From NCBI RefSeq assembly GCF_014279755.1, contig NZ_CP047951.1, positions 868,001-932,000 of the forward strand: a DNA stretch of 64,000 nt, written 5' to 3'. Below the pieces are notes generated by a model that saw only the letters and a program-made list of their open reading frames with translations, ran no database searches and was not told the origin of the DNA. Position numbers and translations under genes: made by a program. The first letter of the stretch is position 1. Each line of letters begins with the position of its first letter. Below are positions 6,282 through 14,260 of the stretch, piece by piece. Source of the stretch: Synechococcus sp. PROS-U-1 (lineage in GTDB: Bacteria; Cyanobacteriota; Cyanobacteriia; PCC-6307; Cyanobiaceae).

Positions 6282-7334
6282 TCATTCTCCTGCTGTTTGG
6301 ATCAGTTGGTGAACCAACTGCTCGAGTGTTAAGCCACTGGCCTCCCAGAGCATGGGGAACATGCTCTGGGCCGTGAAGCCGGGCAGGGTGTTGATTTCAT
6401 TGATCCACAGCTGATCGGTTGCGTCGTCGTAGAAGAAATCAACCCGTCCCATACCGTTGACGCCTACGGCATCACAGGCCTGCAAGGCCTGTGAGCGGAT
6501 GCGTTCACTGACTTGATCCGGCAGAGGGGCAGGAATTAATGTGGTGCTGCGCCCAGCGGTGTATTTGGTCTCGTAGTCGTACCAGTCCGCATCGAAACGC
6601 ACCTCGCCGACCACGGACGCTTCCAAGCTGCGGCCTCCTAGCACCGCACATTCCACTTCCCTGGCGTTGACGCCTTGCTCCACCACAACCCTGGGGTCGA
6701 GCCCTGCTGCCTGGGTGAGGCCAGCCTCGAGTTCCGTGCGCGAACGCACTTTGCTGATGCCAACGGAGGAACCAAGATTGGCGGGCTTCACGAAGCAGGG
6801 GTAATTCAGTTCCGTTTCAATCCGATCCAGGAGTGCGGATCGACTGCTGGGCTCCCCGAGCTCGGATGCCAGAAGTGAGACATAGGGCACTTGAGACAGC
6901 CCGGCGCTGGCAAACGCAGACTTCATCGCCTGTTTGTCCATGCTCACGGCTGATCCCAGAACTCCAGCACCCACGAAGGGTTTGCCGGTCAGCTGGAACA
7001 ACCCCTGAATGGTTCCATCCTCACCATTGGGACCATGCAGAACCGGATACCAGATGTCCACCGCATCGCAGCCTTCAGGGAACCCTTGGAATCCTGAAGG
7101 CTGCGGTGGAGAGTTGAGGTCCGGCGCTGTTTCGGAGGCCAGGGTGGTCTCGGCAAGATCCGTTCCCCACCAGCGACCATCCCGGTCGATGTAAATCGCC
7201 AGCACGGTGTAGCGCTCTGTGTTGCGCCCGCTGCGCAGGCCGCGGACGACGGTCGCCGCGGATCGGATCGAAACGTCGTGTTCTCCAGAGCGGCCTCCGA
7301 AAACGAGCCCGACCGTGATGGGACTGGACGGCAT
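6282..7334 (-). CDS. ddl: D-alanine--D-alanine ligase
   Basis: Ddl joins two D-alanines with ATP to make the terminal dipeptide of the peptidoglycan stem. The 350-residue enzyme begins with [19 protein letters not shown], the family's N-terminal substrate-binding motif with catalytic Glu and Ser. It has the long insertion of the larger VanA/DdlA-like forms, the ATP-grasp region ([16 protein letters not shown]), and the metal-binding C-terminus ([10 protein letters not shown], then [12 protein letters not shown]). It is 51 bases downstream of miaB and just upstream of the small membrane protein and ftsQ. Confidence 0.95.
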
Positions 7335-7385: not shown

Positions 7386-8780
7386 TCAGTGGGGCAGGGG
7401 GTTGCCGCTGAGTGAAAAGGAGCGCACCGCATCGATGCGCACCTGCACGAGATCGCCGGCTCTGTAGGCGTGACCATCTGGTCCGGTGGCGCTGAAGAAG
7501 GTCAGCCGGTTGGTTCTGGTTCGCCCCATGAGTTGCGATGGGTCCTTGGGGTTGATGCCTTCCGCCAGCACCTCCTCGGTGCGTCCGGCGTAGCGGGCAT
7601 TGGCCTTGCGGGCGCAGCGTTCCACCAAGGCATTGATTTCACGCAGGCGTTCCACCTTCACCTCCTCCGGCAGCTGGTTGTCCCAGTCGGCGGCCGGGGT
7701 GTTGGGCCGGGGTGAATAGGCCGCCGTATTCACCTGGTCGAAGCCGATCTCCCCGATCAGATCGAGGGTGCGGCGGAATTGCGCATCGGTTTCGCCTGGG
7801 AAGGCGACAATGACATCGGCGCTGAGGGAGGCATCGGGCATGCGCTCACGGATGCGGTCGATGATCCGCCGGTAGCGCTCCACGGTGTACCCCCGAGCCA
7901 TGGCCTGGAGCACGTCGTTGTCGCCGCTCTGGAAAGGAATGTGGAAGTGCTCGCAGAGCTTGGGCAGGTCGGCGCAGGCATCGATCAGCCGTTCGGTGAA
8001 GTAGCGCGGATGGCTGGTGGCAAAACGGATCCGTTCAATGCCCTCCACGTCGTGAACGTGGTGGAGCAGATCGGTGAGGGTGTGCTGGCGGCGACCCTCT
8101 GGCGTGATGCCCGGCAGATCACGGCCGTAGGCATCAATGTTCTGGCCGAGCAGGGTGATCTCCTTGTAGCCCTGGGCCGCGAGCCCCTCCATTTCCAGCT
8201 GGATCGCCTGGGGCAGCCGCGATTGTTCTTTGCCGCGCACGGAGGGCACCACGCAGTAGGTGCAGCGTTCGTTGCAGCCGTAGATCACGTTCACCCAGCC
8301 GCAGATGCTGCTGTCCCGTCGCGCGGTGGTGATGTCTTCAAGGATGTGGTGGTCTTCGGTGGCGACCACCTGCTGACCGCTGTTCACCTGCAGCAGCAGG
8401 GTCTCGAGGCGATTCGCGTGCTGCGGACCCATCACCAGATCCAGCTCCGGCACCCGCCTGAGCAGGGATTCGCCCTCCTGCTGGGCAACACAGCCCGCCA
8501 CCACCAGGGTGAGATTGGGATTGCTGCGTTTTCTCTGGGCCTGTCTGCCCAGGTAGCTGTACACCTTCTGCTCGGCGTTGTCCCGGATGGTGCAGGTGTT
8601 GTAGAGCACCAGATCGGCATCGAGTTCGGCCGACGCCTCCTGGTAGCCCATGGCCTCCAGGATTCCCGCCATCCGTTCAGAATCCGCCTTGTTCATCTGG
8701 CAGCCGAAGGTGGTGATCCAGTAGCTGCCCCGCTGGGGCTGGGCGGTGGCGTCAGTGGTGAGGGGGGCGGAGGCGACCAA
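7386..8780 (-). CDS. miaB: tRNA-2-methylthio-N6-dimethylallyladenosine synthase MiaB
   Basis: MiaB methylthiolates N6-isopentenyladenosine-37 in tRNAs that read UNN codons. It has three parts. The N-terminal UPF0004 domain ([15 protein letters not shown]) supplies the auxiliary cluster Cys residues. The radical SAM domain has the CxxxCxxC motif in [13 protein letters not shown]. The C-terminal TRAM domain ends the 464-residue protein. The order of Cys motifs and the GCQMN signature favour MiaB over the paralogous RimO (S12 methylthiotransferase). It leads the minus-strand cluster and is divergent from the epimerase gene. Confidence 0.95.
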
Positions 8781-8854
8781 GTCTCGAGCTCAAGCCTTCT
8801 CAGTGTGAGTCACAGCGGTGTTGTGTCAGTTTGGGGATTGGTGGTCGGGTGGTG

Positions 8855-9940
8855 ATGGGCTGGGCCCTGCAACGGTTTTCGCTCACCAAGGCTGTTCCCC
8901 TCACGATCAGCCGTGGCACCACAGCCTCCGTGGTGCGATTGGAACTCAGGCTTGACCGGGATGGGCTGATCGGTCGCGGCGAGACCGGTGGATTCGAGAC
9001 CGGTCACCGTGCCTTTGCTCTCGAGGCTGTGGAACAGGAGCTGCTTGCGCTGCTGCCGCAACTCGATGCGTTGGATCCCAGCCGACCGCAACGGTTCGAG
9101 CCCTTGCTGGCGCCCCTGAGTCCGCCGGCCCGTTGTGCCATCGATCTGGCCTTATGGGACTGGTATGGCCAACGGCTCGGCCATCCGCTGTGGCGGCTCT
9201 GGGGTTTGGATGCGGCCGAGGGGGTGGCCACCAGCGTCACCCTGGGACTGGCCTCTGAGGCTGCGGTGCTGGATCGTCTTCACCGCTGGTGGACTCAGCT
9301 TCCCGCGACGCGGGTCAAACTCAAGCTGGGGAGCCCCGATGGGTTGGACCACGACAGAAGCCTGCTGAAGGCAGTGGCCCAGGCCATCACGGAGCGATCC
9401 CAGCTGCAGGGTGTGGCGATTGAACTCCAGGTGGATGCCAACGGTGGCTGGACCCTGGAACAGGCCAAGCGGATGTTGGAGTCCCTGGCTTCTTTCAAGG
9501 TGGTCCTGTTGGAGCAACCCCTTGCTCCTGATCTGGATCCGGCGCGGGACACGGCAGGCTTCATGCAGCTGCATCCGCACTGTCCGATGCCTTTGGTGGC
9601 GGATGAAAGCTGCTGGGATTTGGAGGATCTGCTGCGTCTGGCTCCAGTAGTGGACGGTGTGAATCTCAAGCTGCTGAAGACCGGTGGCCTCACTCAGGCC
9701 CTGCTGATGGCCCAAGTGGCGCAGCGGAAGGGGCTGGATCTGATGGTGGGCTGTTATTCCGACAGCTCTCTACTGAATGGTGCAGCGGCCCAGTTGCTGC
9801 CCTTCATCCGTTGGCCCGATCTCGACAGCCATCTCAACCTGGTTGACGATCCATTCGCTGGGCTGGCGTTGCACGGTGATCAGCTGGTCCCTTCTTCGAC
9901 GTGCGGATTGGGGATTCGCCCCAAAGCAGACAGGCCTTGA
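8855..9940 (+). CDS. Enolase-superfamily epimerase (dipeptide epimerase / DgcA-like)
   Basis: A 361-residue member of the muconate-lactonizing subgroup of the enolase superfamily. The catalytic set reads clearly: KxK base in RVKLKLG, metal ligands in QVDANGGW, LLEQPL and VADESCWD, and the second base in VNLKLLKTGG. This is the pattern of L-Ala-D/L-Glu epimerases and of the N-acetyl-D-glutamate racemase DgcA. I use the ATG at 8855 rather than the upstream one at 8831, because conservation should begin at the barrel-capping strand. A DUF1611 gene follows 40 bases downstream on the same strand, the same pairing as dgcN-dgcA. The substrate (dipeptide or N-acetyl-glutamate) cannot be decided from sequence alone. 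Confidence 0.8.
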   Translation: MGWALQRFSLTKAVPLTISRGTTASVVRLELRLDRDGLIGRGETGGFETGHRAFALEAVEQELLALLPQLDALDPSRPQRFEPLLAPLSPPARCAIDLALWDWYGQRLGHPLWRLWGLDAAEGVATSVTLGLASEAAVLDRLHRWWTQLPATRVKLKLGSPDGLDHDRSLLKAVAQAITERSQLQGVAIELQVDANGGWTLEQAKRMLESLASFKVVLLEQPLAPDLDPARDTAGFMQLHPHCPMPLVADESCWDLEDLLRLAPVVDGVNLKLLKTGGLTQALLMAQVAQRKGLDLMVGCYSDSSLLNGAAAQLLPFIRWPDLDSHLNLVDDPFAGLALHGDQLVPSSTCGLGIRPKADRP

Positions 9941-9980
9941 GCTGCACTGCTATCGGTGTGCGTGAAAGCACGGCAGCTTT

Positions 9981-11063
9981 ATGAGCGGGATTCAGGCGCC
10001 GCCAGGATTTCGAGACATGCGGTTGGTGCTGCTCCAACACGGCTGTTTAGCCAGTCTCACCGGGAAGACCGGGCTGGCCATGCTGCGCCACCGTGCCGGC
10101 CCGATCGTCGCGGTGATCGATCCCGACCATGCCGGCCAGTCTCTGCAGCAGATCACCGGCATTGCGCGTGACGTGCCGGTGGTGTCGGATTTGGCCGCGG
10201 CTCTTCCCTACCAGCCGGAGGCTGCTGTGATTGGTCTGGCTCCCTCTGGAGGGAGACTGCCGGACCCTGTTCGTCACGATGTCCTGGAGGCGTTGCGCGC
10301 AGGCCTTCACCTCGCCAGCGGACTTCACACTCGACTGGCTGAGGATCCGGAATTGGGTGCAGCCTGCTGGCCAGACCGCTGGATCTGGGATCTGCGGCGG
10401 GAGCCGGAGGCTCTCGGTATCGGCCAGGCACGGGCTGCAGCGCTTCCCTGTCAACGCCTTTTGGCGGTTGGAACCGACATGGCGGTGGGAAAGATGAGCG
10501 CCTGCCTGGCTTTGCTGGAGGCGGCCCAGAGTTCCGGCATTCCCTCGCGCTTTGTTGGGACGGGACAGGCGGGAATTCTGATCAGTGGAGAAGGGGTTGC
10601 CCTGGATGCTGTTCGCGTCGATTACGCCGCCGGTGCGGTGGAGGCGGCGGTGCTTCGGGCGGCGGATGCTCTGCCGGAGCAGGGCCTCGTGCTTGTTGAG
10701 GGGCAGGGGTCGTTGTGTCACCCCGCCTCAACCGCGACCCTCCCCCTGTTGCGCGGAGCCCAGCCAACCGCCCTCTTGCTCGTGCATCGGGCTGGCCAGC
10801 AGACCATCGATCGACTGCCTCAGATTCCTCTCCCCGACCTCGCGGCCTTGGTGGCCACCACGGAAGCCTTGGCGAGTTGGGCACGGCCTGATGGCGCAGG
10901 CACTTCAGCCAAGGTGGCTGCCGTCGCCCTCAACACCGCACGCCTCGATGAGGATCAGGCCACGATCGAGGTTGATCGATTGAGTCAGACGCTTGGCTTG
11001 CCATGCACAGATCCCATTCGCTGGGGCGCCGAGCCTCTGCTCAAAGCCTTCATGAGTTTTTGA
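9981..11063 (+). CDS. DUF1611 family protein (DgcN-like, P-loop)
   Basis: A 360-residue DUF1611 protein. The N-terminal half is Rossmann-like (IVAVIDPDHAG, VIGLAPSGG). The C-terminal half is a P-loop domain with the Walker-A-like GTDMAVGKMSA and the family signature FVGTGQAGILISGEGVALDAV, followed by VLVEGQGSL. The DUF1611 member DgcN has been reported as a D-glutamate N-acetyltransferase working with the racemase DgcA. The upstream neighbour here is an enolase-superfamily epimerase, so the same function is a reasonable hypothesis. Spacing of 40 bases and the shared strand suggest an operon. Family membership is clear; the enzyme activity is inferred. Confidence 0.8.
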   Translation: MSGIQAPPGFRDMRLVLLQHGCLASLTGKTGLAMLRHRAGPIVAVIDPDHAGQSLQQITGIARDVPVVSDLAAALPYQPEAAVIGLAPSGGRLPDPVRHDVLEALRAGLHLASGLHTRLAEDPELGAACWPDRWIWDLRREPEALGIGQARAAALPCQRLLAVGTDMAVGKMSACLALLEAAQSSGIPSRFVGTGQAGILISGEGVALDAVRVDYAAGAVEAAVLRAADALPEQGLVLVEGQGSLCHPASTATLPLLRGAQPTALLLVHRAGQQTIDRLPQIPLPDLAALVATTEALASWARPDGAGTSAKVAAVALNTARLDEDQATIEVDRLSQTLGLPCTDPIRWGAEPLLKAFMSF

Positions 11064-11183: not shown

Positions 11184-11615
11184 GTGTCCCCTTTATCGCG
11201 TCCGCAACGTGTGCCTGCCCTGGCGCTGTTGACGGGGGGTGTCGCCATGGCCGGCGTGCTGTCTCTGGTGTTCTCCAATCCCTCCCTGGACGACTACGAG
11301 GCCCATGCCGGAGCCCAGTTGGTCAAGTTGGGCACCAAGGAACTCTGTGACGCACCAACCCTGCCGATGGTGCTGCGTCTGTGGATTCGCAATTGCCCTG
11401 AATTGATTGCATCCCAACGGGATGCTCTGGCGGCGCTGGCCGGTCAGTTCACCACCCGTCGCAACCTGGTAGTGGCCAGCTTGTATTCCACCCGCATGGG
11501 AGGAAAGGAGTTGCTGCCGGGGCTGCGCCTGCCTGGCTTCGATGTGCTGACCCTTGGAGTGGCGGGACGTTTTGTGATTCTCAGAACCGACGCAAGCAAC
11601 GGTGCGCCGGAGTGA
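11184..11615 (+). CDS. DUF4359 family protein
   Basis: A 143-residue protein with an N-terminal membrane helix or uncleaved signal at residues 10-30 (VPALALLTGGVAMAGVLSLV), followed by the NPSLDDYEAHAGAQL motif that I associate with DUF4359. This family occurs mainly in cyanobacteria and has no assigned function. Two Cys residues (ELCDAP and RNCPEL) could form a disulfide outside the cytoplasm. The start is GTG. The stop codon overlaps the GTG start of the next gene (GTGA), so the two are translationally coupled. Confidence 0.7.
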   Translation: MSPLSRPQRVPALALLTGGVAMAGVLSLVFSNPSLDDYEAHAGAQLVKLGTKELCDAPTLPMVLRLWIRNCPELIASQRDALAALAGQFTTRRNLVVASLYSTRMGGKELLPGLRLPGFDVLTLGVAGRFVILRTDASNGAPE

Positions 11616-12892
11616 CGGACGCTCCGTCGCTTGAGTTCCAGCCGGGAAGCGGTGTCCTTGATGCTTGGGTTCCCCTTGGACTGCTTGATTTCGACCCTGC
11701 AACACCCGTGCCAGTCGTCGAGACGCAGGGGCTGACGCCTGTGCGTCTCGCCTGGCATCAGGGGCGCCTGTGTGAGCTGAAGCCTTTGACCACTGATCAA
11801 TCGCCACCGTCTCGGATGGTGCTGCCGCGATTGGTGGACTGCCATGTTCATTTGGACAAGGCCTACACCTGGCAGGACCATCCCAACCTCAGGGGCAGTT
11901 ATGGGGGTGCTCTGGACGCCAACCTGCAGGAGCACAACACGCGAACCGTGGGATCGGTTCTCCAACGCGGCGAGCGTGCATTGAAGAGGGCCTACGGCCA
12001 TGGTCTGCGCGCCGTGCGCAGCCATGTCGACAGTGGTGGCCCCGGTGCCGAGCCCAGCTGGGATGCATTGCTCACCCTTCAGCAACGCTGGCGCAGCCGC
12101 ATCGATCTTCAGCTGGTGGCGTTGGTGCCCCTGGCGTTCTGGGGGTCAGCTGAAGCGGATGCTCTGGCGCGTCGTGTGGCCGCCAGTGGCGGGTGCCTTG
12201 GCGGTGTCCTCACCCCTCCCTGTGGATCGGCTGAGGTGACGCATCAGTTGGAGCGCCTGTTGCGTCTTGCTGATCGTTACAGCTGCGGCGTCGATCTGCA
12301 TATCGATGAGGCCGATCATGGTCCGGCCGAGGGCATGGTTCAGCTTCTCAAGGCTCTGCGGCGCGTGCCGGTGCAGGTTCCTGTCACCTGCAGCCATGCC
12401 AGCAGTCTTTCGCTGCTGCCGGCGCCACGCCTGTTGCGGTTGGCAGAGCACATGGCGGCAGTACAGCTTCGCGTCATTGCACTGCCCCTCACCAATGCCT
12501 GGTTGCTGGCGCGATCGGAGGGTGCCACTCCGCTTCAGCGTCCGCAGGCCCCGATCCGTCAGTTGCAACGCTGTGGTGTTCCGGTGGCGGTGGCGGGAGA
12601 CAACGTGGCTGACCCCTGGTTCCCCGGAGGCGACTTCGATCCCTTGGCCCTGCTGGCCGCGTCGATGCCGTTGACCCAGCTGTTGCCCTGGCAGCGCCTG
12701 GGTCTGGCCCCCTTCACCACGGCACCGTCAGCGATTCTTCAGCTGGAGTGGGATGGGGTGCTGCGGGCCGGTGCTCCTGCCGATCTGATTTGCATCGAGG
12801 GCCAGGGATGGTCGGATCTGATCCGCTGCCCTCCGCAGCGCCAGGTTCTCGTGAAAGGCCACTGGCTGACGTCATCGGGCGCTAGACCCTGA
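11612..12892 (+). CDS. CodA-like amidohydrolase (cytosine deaminase family)
   Basis: A 426-residue metal-dependent hydrolase. It has the H-x-H pair in CHVHLDK near residue 78, a second ligand/catalytic His-Glu in DLHIDEADH, a third His in CSHASSL and the catalytic Asp in VAGDNVADPW. These match the layout of cytosine deaminase CodA, which uses a single metal and no carboxylated Lys. CodA-like enzymes also act on isoguanine, creatinine and N-isopropylammelide-type substrates, so the substrate here is open. The start is GTG overlapping the upstream stop. A flavin oxidase follows four bases later, suggesting that one pathway uses both. Confidence 0.75.
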   Translation: MTDAPSLEFQPGSGVLDAWVPLGLLDFDPATPVPVVETQGLTPVRLAWHQGRLCELKPLTTDQSPPSRMVLPRLVDCHVHLDKAYTWQDHPNLRGSYGGALDANLQEHNTRTVGSVLQRGERALKRAYGHGLRAVRSHVDSGGPGAEPSWDALLTLQQRWRSRIDLQLVALVPLAFWGSAEADALARRVAASGGCLGGVLTPPCGSAEVTHQLERLLRLADRYSCGVDLHIDEADHGPAEGMVQLLKALRRVPVQVPVTCSHASSLSLLPAPRLLRLAEHMAAVQLRVIALPLTNAWLLARSEGATPLQRPQAPIRQLQRCGVPVAVAGDNVADPWFPGGDFDPLALLAASMPLTQLLPWQRLGLAPFTTAPSAILQLEWDGVLRAGAPADLICIEGQGWSDLIRCPPQRQVLVKGHWLTSSGARP

Positions 12893-12895
12893 CTA

Positions 12896-14260
12896 GTGTT
12901 CAGCCACGTTATGGGTCGTGCCGAAGCCTTAATCGCCTTGCGGCAAGCCCTCAGCGCTGTTTCTGAGCTGGAGCTGTTGAGTGAACCGGCTGAGCTTCAG
13001 CGCCATTCCCGGGATGCCTTCGAGTACTCCCCCGTCCTCACGCCCCGGCTGGAGAGCTGTCGTGCTGAGTTGGTGGTCCGCCCCCGCACGGTGGAGGCCG
13101 TTGAACGGCTGGCTTCGGCTTGCGCTGAGCACCAGGTTCCTCTGACCCTGCGCGGCTCCGGGACCGGGAACTACGGCCAGTGTGTGCCTTTGGAAGGGGG
13201 CGTGGTGATGCTCACCACGGCCCTGCGTCAGATCCGATCGTTGGATGCGGCGACCGGGGTGGTGACCGTGGAACCGGGCTGTGTGATGCGCGATCTGGAT
13301 CAGGAGCTACGCCGGCATGGGCGCCAGCTTCGCTTGATGCCCAGCACCTGGCGTAGCGCCACCATCGGCGGCTTCGTTGCGGGTGGCTCGGGTGGCATCG
13401 GTTCCTTGCGCTGGGGTTTTCTGCGGGATCCAGGCCATCTGCTGGGGCTTGAGGTCGTGCCGCTGCGCGCGGATGCCCAACGCCATCAGATCGGTGAGAT
13501 GGACGCCGAAGCGTTGAACCATGCTTATGGCACCAACGGCATTATCACGGCCCTCAGCCTGGCCACCGCCCCAGCGGTCAACTGGCATCAGGTGAGTGTG
13601 GACTGCCCGGGCTGGGAGCAGGCAATCGAGCTGATGCACAGGATCGCGGCATCCGCTGTGGATCTTCATCTGGCCACCCTCCTGGAGCAGCCGCTGCTGC
13701 CGCGGATGCCCAGTTGGGGTGGCCCTGCCGTCCCTGCGCATCGGCTGCTGTTGCTCGTCGCGCCCGATGGGCTCAATAGCCTGCAACGGATGGCCCAGTC
13801 AGCCGGCGCCACCCTGCGGGATCTCGGGCCCGAGGATCTCTCCGGGGGCAATGGATTGCGCGAACTGAGCTGGAACCACACGACCCTGCATGTTCGTTCT
13901 TCAGAGCCAGGGTGGACCTACCTCCAAATGTTGTTGCCGCAGCCGGAGGCCCCGGCAATGGCGGCGTTGAAGGAGCGCTGGGGAGATGCCCTGATCTGGC
14001 ATCTCGAGCTGGTGTGCCAGCAGGGCCGTCCCCGTTTGGCTGCCCTGCCACTGGTGCGCTGGCAGGGGGCGGAGCCGCTGAACCGGTTGATGGACGACTG
14101 CAAATCTGCGGGTGCCGTGCTGTTCAACCCCCACGTGATCACGGTGGAGGATGGCGGCCTCGGCGTGATCGATGCTGATCAGGTGGCGGCCAAGCACCGC
14201 TTTGATCCGGCAGGTCTGCTCAATCCCGGCAAGCTGCGGGGCTGGGAGGAGCGATCCTGA
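12896..14260 (+). CDS. FAD-binding oxidase, GlcD / D-lactate dehydrogenase type
   Basis: A 454-residue flavoprotein of the FAD_binding_4 / PCMH family. The nucleotide loop TLRGSGTGNYGQCVPLEGGVV is near residues 80-100, the second FAD segment is LMPSTWRSATIGGFVAGGSGGIGSL, and the C-terminal FAD-oxidase domain ends with FDPAGLLNPGKL. Relatives oxidise 2-hydroxyacids such as glycolate or D-lactate. Members with this G-N-Y-G loop also include uncharacterised cyanobacterial paralogues. The GTG start is three bases after the amidohydrolase stop. The C-terminus is convergent with the pentapeptide gene, three bases apart. The substrate is unknown. Confidence 0.75.
   Translation: MFSHVMGRAEALIALRQALSAVSELELLSEPAELQRHSRDAFEYSPVLTPRLESCRAELVVRPRTVEAVERLASACAEHQVPLTLRGSGTGNYGQCVPLEGGVVMLTTALRQIRSLDAATGVVTVEPGCVMRDLDQELRRHGRQLRLMPSTWRSATIGGFVAGGSGGIGSLRWGFLRDPGHLLGLEVVPLRADAQRHQIGEMDAEALNHAYGTNGIITALSLATAPAVNWHQVSVDCPGWEQAIELMHRIAASAVDLHLATLLEQPLLPRMPSWGGPAVPAHRLLLLVAPDGLNSLQRMAQSAGATLRDLGPEDLSGGNGLRELSWNHTTLHVRSSEPGWTYLQMLLPQPEAPAMAALKERWGDALIWHLELVCQQGRPRLAALPLVRWQGAEPLNRLMDDCKSAGAVLFNPHVITVEDGGLGVIDADQVAAKHRFDPAGLLNPGKLRGWEERS

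Follow-up and report, generated by a model that had tools for sequence, protein, structure and literature searches.

Can a phototroph feed a D-amino acid into L-glutamate metabolism? The question is raised by two adjoining genes of Synechococcus sp. PROS-U-1, one for an enolase-superfamily epimerase and one for a DUF1611 protein. Proteins of these families reportedly make up the DgcN-DgcA D-glutamate pathway (D-Glu N-acetyltransferase plus N-acetyl-D-Glu racemase), which Yu et al. are said to have described in ISME J in 2023. We analyzed the pair within a window of 64,000 nucleotides (the whole stretch of DNA under study) of this 2.58 Mb, single-contig genome. The first-pass annotation had read the two genes as a possible DgcA/DgcN pair of a marine cyanobacterium, with an Ala-Glu epimerase beside an unrelated DUF1611 protein as the alternative. 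We find that the pair is a diverged, racemase-first DgcN/DgcA-like module, widespread in cyanobacteria and not a marine oddity, which probably channels a D-amino acid into L-glutamate metabolism; the likeliest candidate is D-glutamate set free by turnover of the cell wall.

The epimerase ORF (forward strand) runs from an ATG at 8855 to the stop at 9940; a TTG sits at 8831, and residues are counted from the ATG. The protein belongs to the MLE subgroup, with the Pfam domains MR_MLE_N (4e-8) and MR_MLE_C (8e-27). Its catalytic set is complete: K155-x-K157 (KLK, 9317-9325), D194, E220, D250 and K272-x-x-K275 (KLLK, 9668-9679). In alignments, these residues are essentially invariant across 69 relatives, as are R20 (8912-8914; ISRG of the 20s loop) and D322-x-D324 (9818-9832; DLDSH, where the SH is clade-specific and replaced by GP in DgcA/YcjG). 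R20 occurs in 68 of these 69 and in each of the seven DgcA/YcjG sequences compared; the alignments showed no such Arg in epimerases of other specificity, e.g. 3jva, 3q45 and 2p88. By family knowledge, R20 points to an acidic side chain of the substrate, the carboxylate of which (Glu or Asp) it is predicted to bind. The DxD motif binds the free amino group in dipeptide epimerases. The AlphaFold (AF2) model (pLDDT 95.6) found its best fold match in 3iji/3ijq, an L-Ala-D/L-Glu epimerase with L-Ala-D-Glu. The hallmarks of such enzymes (enolase-superfamily catalytic set, Arg for Glu, DxD) are all present. The cut-offs of the curated models for them were nevertheless missed (PRK15129, 110 vs 343 bits; A_G_epim_Thtga, 79 vs 500 bits).

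After a gap of 40 bases (9941-9980), the DUF1611 ORF extends on the same strand from an ATG at 9981 to the stop at 11063. ORFs, Pfam and alignments thus bear out the arrangement given in the first-pass annotation. Both DUF1611 domains, DUF1611_C (2e-66) and DUF1611_N (4e-26), scored above the gathering score (PF07755 and PF17396; 223.8 and 91.6 bits). A Walker-A-like P-loop, GTDMAVGKM (10470-10496), contains G164, D166, G170 and K171, which are invariant in two DUF1611 alignments. Solved structures were matched with E values of 3e-98 (2obn) and 1e-40 (7xrj). For the AF2 model (pLDDT 95.2), Foldseek ranked 2obn first, followed by 7xrj ("N-acetyltransferase DgcN-25328"; TM 0.79/0.85) and 2g0t, and then by P-loop proteins (dethiobiotin synthetase/BioD, adenylate kinase, HypB, the N-terminal domain of Pta). 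A GNAT fold was considered and rejected, as none occurred among the best 50 fold matches. The first-ranked structure, Anabaena variabilis Ava_3511 (2obn), belongs to the same DUF1611 clade as the window protein (about 50% identity); it shows no difference of note and is a structure without assigned function.

How close is the pair to DgcA/DgcN? The same two protein families form a tight pair in both cases, and the best NCBIfam models for the two window proteins were DgcA (NF042940) and DgcN (NF041892). However, both equivalog cut-offs were missed, with 165 vs 400 bits for the epimerase and 225 vs 480 bits for DUF1611. The DgcN/DgcA reactions carry EC 2.3.1.312 and 5.1.1.25 (PMC11747546). The window DUF1611 has the fold of DgcN and its invariant residues: 30 invariant columns, including the P-loop, TGQ and EGQG, are common to the window clade and DgcN. 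Likewise, the epimerase agrees with DgcA and YcjG in fold, catalytic Lys and metal residues, R20 and DxD. In contrast, the signature DANE, KLDK, DLDGP of DgcA/YcjG is DANG, KLLK, DLDSH in the window epimerase (DANGG, KL[ML]K, DLDSH in its clade), the 50s loop reads ETGHRA instead of RYxE, and position 303 is D/E in the window clade vs G/C. Gene order also differs, as dgcN comes first in all annotated dgcN-dgcA plasmid pairs (Sphingobium, Pantoea, Ruegeria, Vibrio, Klebsiella). A LysR gene adjoins the pair in Sphingobium and Vibrio; none adjoins the window pair.

In the epimerase tree, DgcA sequences and E. coli YcjG formed one starred clade and the racemase-first epimerases, including the window protein, a separate one. 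3iji, L146 and L150 were nearer to the window epimerase than DgcA/YcjG, and the nearest characterized relative of the racemase-first clade was the Bacteroides L-Ala-D/L-Glu epimerase 3iji. The DUF1611 tree placed DgcN (7xrj and annotated dgcN) on a long branch as a clade with 100/100 support; the window protein groups with 2obn in a different clade of 45 rows. The trees have long branches and an uncertain root, but both window proteins belong to separate, well-supported clades and neither falls inside the DgcA or DgcN clade. In the strict sense, this is the placement away from the DgcA/DgcN clades that the first-pass annotation had named as evidence against its proposal, although the clades are homologous neighbors. 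A single clade of all DUF1611-paired epimerases without YcjG and 3iji was rejected (AU test, p = 3e-7). Therefore, either the pairing has several origins or the YcjG/3iji lineages have lost it. Note that E. coli YcjG (1jpd) nests within the DgcA clade and carries the DgcA active-site signature, so annotation of DgcA by sequence may be ambiguous.

To survey the phylum, 244 genomes were searched with each window protein. Both genes were found in 72 genomes and neither in 171; this DUF1611 type never occurred alone, and the epimerase did so once, in a genome of another class (G035). By our count, 67 of the 117 genomes of class Cyanobacteriia carry the pair and 50 neither gene; a cyanobacterial-type epimerase without DUF1611 was found in none of the 117. 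Fisher's test gave p = 7e-62 for co-occurrence with genomes treated as independent, a value that overstates independence because the genomes are kin. In 57 pairs the genes adjoin with the epimerase first and a gap of <300 bases, and in many loci the ORFs overlap by about 4-17 nt. Five pairs, of family f36, have DUF1611 first. Evolutionary distances of the partners correlated with r = 0.915 over 70 loci (best of 2000 permutations, 0.22). The nearest relatives are Synechococcus BS301-5m (L071) and Synechococcus MED650 (L072). "Marine" is thus plausible for the source organism; the trait itself is not confined to marine strains.

The pair is flanked upstream by the divergent genes miaB (7386-8780) and ddl (6282-7334) and downstream (11184-14260) by a same-strand row encoding a DUF4359 protein, an amidohydrolase resembling cytosine deaminase (its NCBIfam score stays under the cut-off) and a GlcD-like FAD oxidase. 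In Cyanobiaceae, the two genes are gained or lost as a cassette between miaB and DUF4359. Both are missing in G133, G135, G159 and G219. G219 and G135 retain ddl-miaB and DUF4359-amidohydrolase-oxidase, and G159 retains ddl-miaB and amidohydrolase-oxidase. In G133, DUF1611 is gone and all that the site (L166:6102-6194) retains of the epimerase is 31 residues of its N-terminus, which is evidence of joint loss. The amidohydrolase is core in Cyanobiaceae, being present in 14/14 relatives tested, with or without the pair, and is therefore no part of the module. The DUF4359, amidohydrolase and oxidase genes were all rejected as pathway parts, as these flanks persist where the pair is missing. Nitrogen control through an NtcA box was also rejected: no box was found upstream of the pair or elsewhere in the window, and those in 5/62 relatives were not convincing.

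These data leave little room for the reading that epimerase and DUF1611 are chance neighbors with unrelated functions. The genes do lie apart in five genomes (2.4 Mb in G011, on different contigs in the other four), but even these carry both; given the 72/72 co-occurrence and the joint absence in the four genomes above, we regard chance as highly improbable. Co-occurrence, adjacency, distance correlation and joint loss together rule against the "unrelated DUF1611" of the first-pass alternative. The pair is a self-contained module and one functional unit.

Racemase-first pairs also occur beyond cyanobacteria, in Flavobacteriaceae, Paracoccaceae, Planctomycetota, Armatimonadota, Myxococcota and others; no third gene in the neighborhoods of Flavobacteriaceae and others recurred regularly enough to reveal the substrate. 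Three MAGs labelled Fimbriimonadales, Verrucomicrobia and Planctomycetota (L092, L106, L119) contain a cyanobacterial-type DUF1611, reflecting either transfer or binning error. In the f36 loci L161, L162, L163 and L165, the DUF1611-first pair lies within a conserved cluster of nadB, nadA, a GAF/GGDEF/HD protein, DUF1611, epimerase, peroxiredoxin, GNAT, oxidoreductase and an MTAP-like protein (nadA named by NCBIfam in L161; names without family match are our reading of the sequences). A poribacterial DUF1611 gene (L145:3034-4143) has no epimerase nearby and sits beside a gene for a 3-hydroxy-D-aspartate-aldolase-like protein.

We next considered which substrate the module handles. DxD was rejected as a discriminator between dipeptide epimerases and DgcA, as it occurs in both, and since the Arg and DxD are common to the two, the sequence alone does not settle the substrate. 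L-Ala-D/L-Glu epimerases (Bacteroides 3iji/3ijq, E. coli YcjG 1jpd, B. subtilis YkfB 1jpm) resemble the window protein in fold, catalytic residues, the Arg for the acidic side chain and DxD. The epimerase could act on such dipeptides in muropeptide recycling, with DUF1611 serving elsewhere in the same route. This fits with 3iji/3ijq being the closest characterized epimerase in both tree and fold, with the conservation of R20 and DxD, and with the position of YcjG inside the DgcA clade, which brings the two activities close together. However, the window gene is tied to DUF1611, whereas a control search of E. coli gave no DUF1611 match although YcjG and S66 are present. Dipeptide recycling thus does not need DUF1611. 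S66 (LdcA-type) peptidases occur in 225/244 genomes whether the pair is present or absent, and still no cyanobacterial-type epimerase without DUF1611 was found in the 117 Cyanobacteriia genomes. We therefore consider a dipeptide epimerase unlikely. A link to muropeptide recycling via the S66 peptidases was dropped, these being near-universal and uninformative.

As a dipeptide epimerase needs no DUF1611 and the cyanobacterial epimerase essentially never occurs without it, we take as the simplest reading that the epimerase acts on what DUF1611 produces. To our knowledge, DgcN is the only characterized DUF1611 relative, which makes N-acylation of an acidic D-amino acid followed by racemization the best-supported mechanism. 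With moderate confidence, we favor a two-enzyme module that forms a subfamily of its own yet operates in the manner of DgcN/DgcA, acting on N-acyl-(D/L)-Glu and feeding arginine synthesis. Donor, direction and source would be as follows. DUF1611 would N-acylate an acidic D-amino acid, most likely by N-acetylation from acetyl-CoA; the substrate would most likely be D-Glu, either imported or set free as peptidoglycan turns over. Next, the epimerase would invert the acylated product at its α-carbon through the two-lysine enolate mechanism of the enolase type (K155/K157 and K272), with Mg2+ held by D194, E220 and D250 and the side-chain carboxylate by R20. The N-acetyl-L-Glu that this would yield is an intermediate of arginine biosynthesis, and its acetyl group would either be regained when ArgJ acts or be cleaved off by an M20 amidohydrolase. 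Genes for ArgJ, MurI and two M20 hydrolases are present in the genome. ArgJ of Synechocystis takes the place of ArgA and ArgE (PMC7133116), so N-acetyl-L-Glu could enter arginine synthesis directly.

The DgcN/DgcA-like reading is supported by the perfect co-occurrence, adjacency, cassette-like joint presence and loss, correlated distances and ORF overlaps; by DgcA and DgcN as closest NCBIfam models, the match to 7xrj (TM 0.79) and the P-loop, TGQ and EGQG common with DgcN; by R20, kept in the window clade, DgcA and E. coli YcjG; and by the ArgJ, M20 and MurI genes. Neighbors in relatives also fit: the C-terminal part of a phosphotransacetylase (Pta)-like protein, encoded immediately upstream in a gammaproteobacterial MAG (L148:1-594), a GltP-like symporter gene near the pair on the opposite strand in L133 (L137 has a homologue), and, downstream of the pair in a Paracoccaceae genome (L149:6236-7426), a weak match to a D-aminopeptidase of the DppA kind (136 bits vs a cut-off of 430). 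These, however, are single or few cases. Strict orthology with DgcA/DgcN was not supported (bits, trees, gene order, active-site signature), while one functional unit, the best family models and the 7xrj match agree with the first-pass annotation. Further points against are that both proteins lie outside the characterized clades, that tree and fold place the epimerase nearest to 3iji, that DxD, a free-amino-group binder in dipeptide epimerases, is invariant in the window clade, that a P-loop fold (BioD, adenylate kinase and HypB neighbors) does not alone indicate acetyl-CoA, and that MurI already interconverts D- and L-Glu.

The same two-step logic might instead serve another substrate or activation, such as D-Asp, D-Gln or D-isoGln, a non-acetyl acyl group or ATP-dependent P-loop chemistry. 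The clade stands apart and differs in active-site signature and 50s loop, which is consistent with this, as are the kinase/ligase-like neighbors of the P-loop fold. A second DUF1611 type is also relevant. This divergent type occurs in six of the 244 genomes, five of which also carry the first type (G203 does not). In 6/6 (L155-L160, from G231, G064, G203, G227, G099 and G169) its direct neighbor is a PLP protein similar to ornithine racemase (Orr), and the Orr-like racemase is restricted to exactly these genomes. Phaeobacter porticola (L067:3938-6189) has the same arrangement. As with the window pair, DUF1611 sits beside an amino-acid racemase with perfect co-occurrence, but the racemase is of unrelated fold and chemistry, and the DUF1611 is only about 29-34% identical to the window protein. 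Since the amino group must be free for a PLP racemase, DUF1611 cannot be a mere supplier of α-N-acetylated substrate to the Orr-like partner. Either the second type acts after the racemase, or the chemistry of the family is broader than D-Glu acetylation. A search of full-text literature returned no paper that, judged by title and abstract, dealt with this arrangement. Since R20 argues for an acidic side chain and the invariant DUF1611 residues are common with DgcN, we view another substrate or activation as possible but doubtful.

As a speculation that we would hold only loosely, DUF1611 may be a general "racemase-coupled" P-loop family with two unrelated obligate racemase partners (enolase-type and PLP Orr-type), the enolase-type module, in more than half of the sampled Cyanobacteriia genomes, salvaging peptidoglycan D-Glu as N-acetyl-L-Glu into the arginine pathway and bypassing free L-Glu.

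The D-Glu route through DgcN/DgcA has so far been described for marine heterotrophs and haloarchaea. If our favored reading of a DgcN/DgcA-like module is true, a diverged form of this route is present in 67/117 sampled Cyanobacteriia genomes, and phototrophs would have a means of reclaiming the D-amino acids that cell-wall turnover or dissolved organic matter supplies. The structure 2obn, released in 2007 without an assigned role, gains a candidate function, and the PLP-racemase-linked DUF1611 type makes a general role of the family testable. In picocyanobacteria, where the cassette is either cleanly present or cleanly absent, strains that naturally have it and strains that lack it lend themselves to direct comparison.
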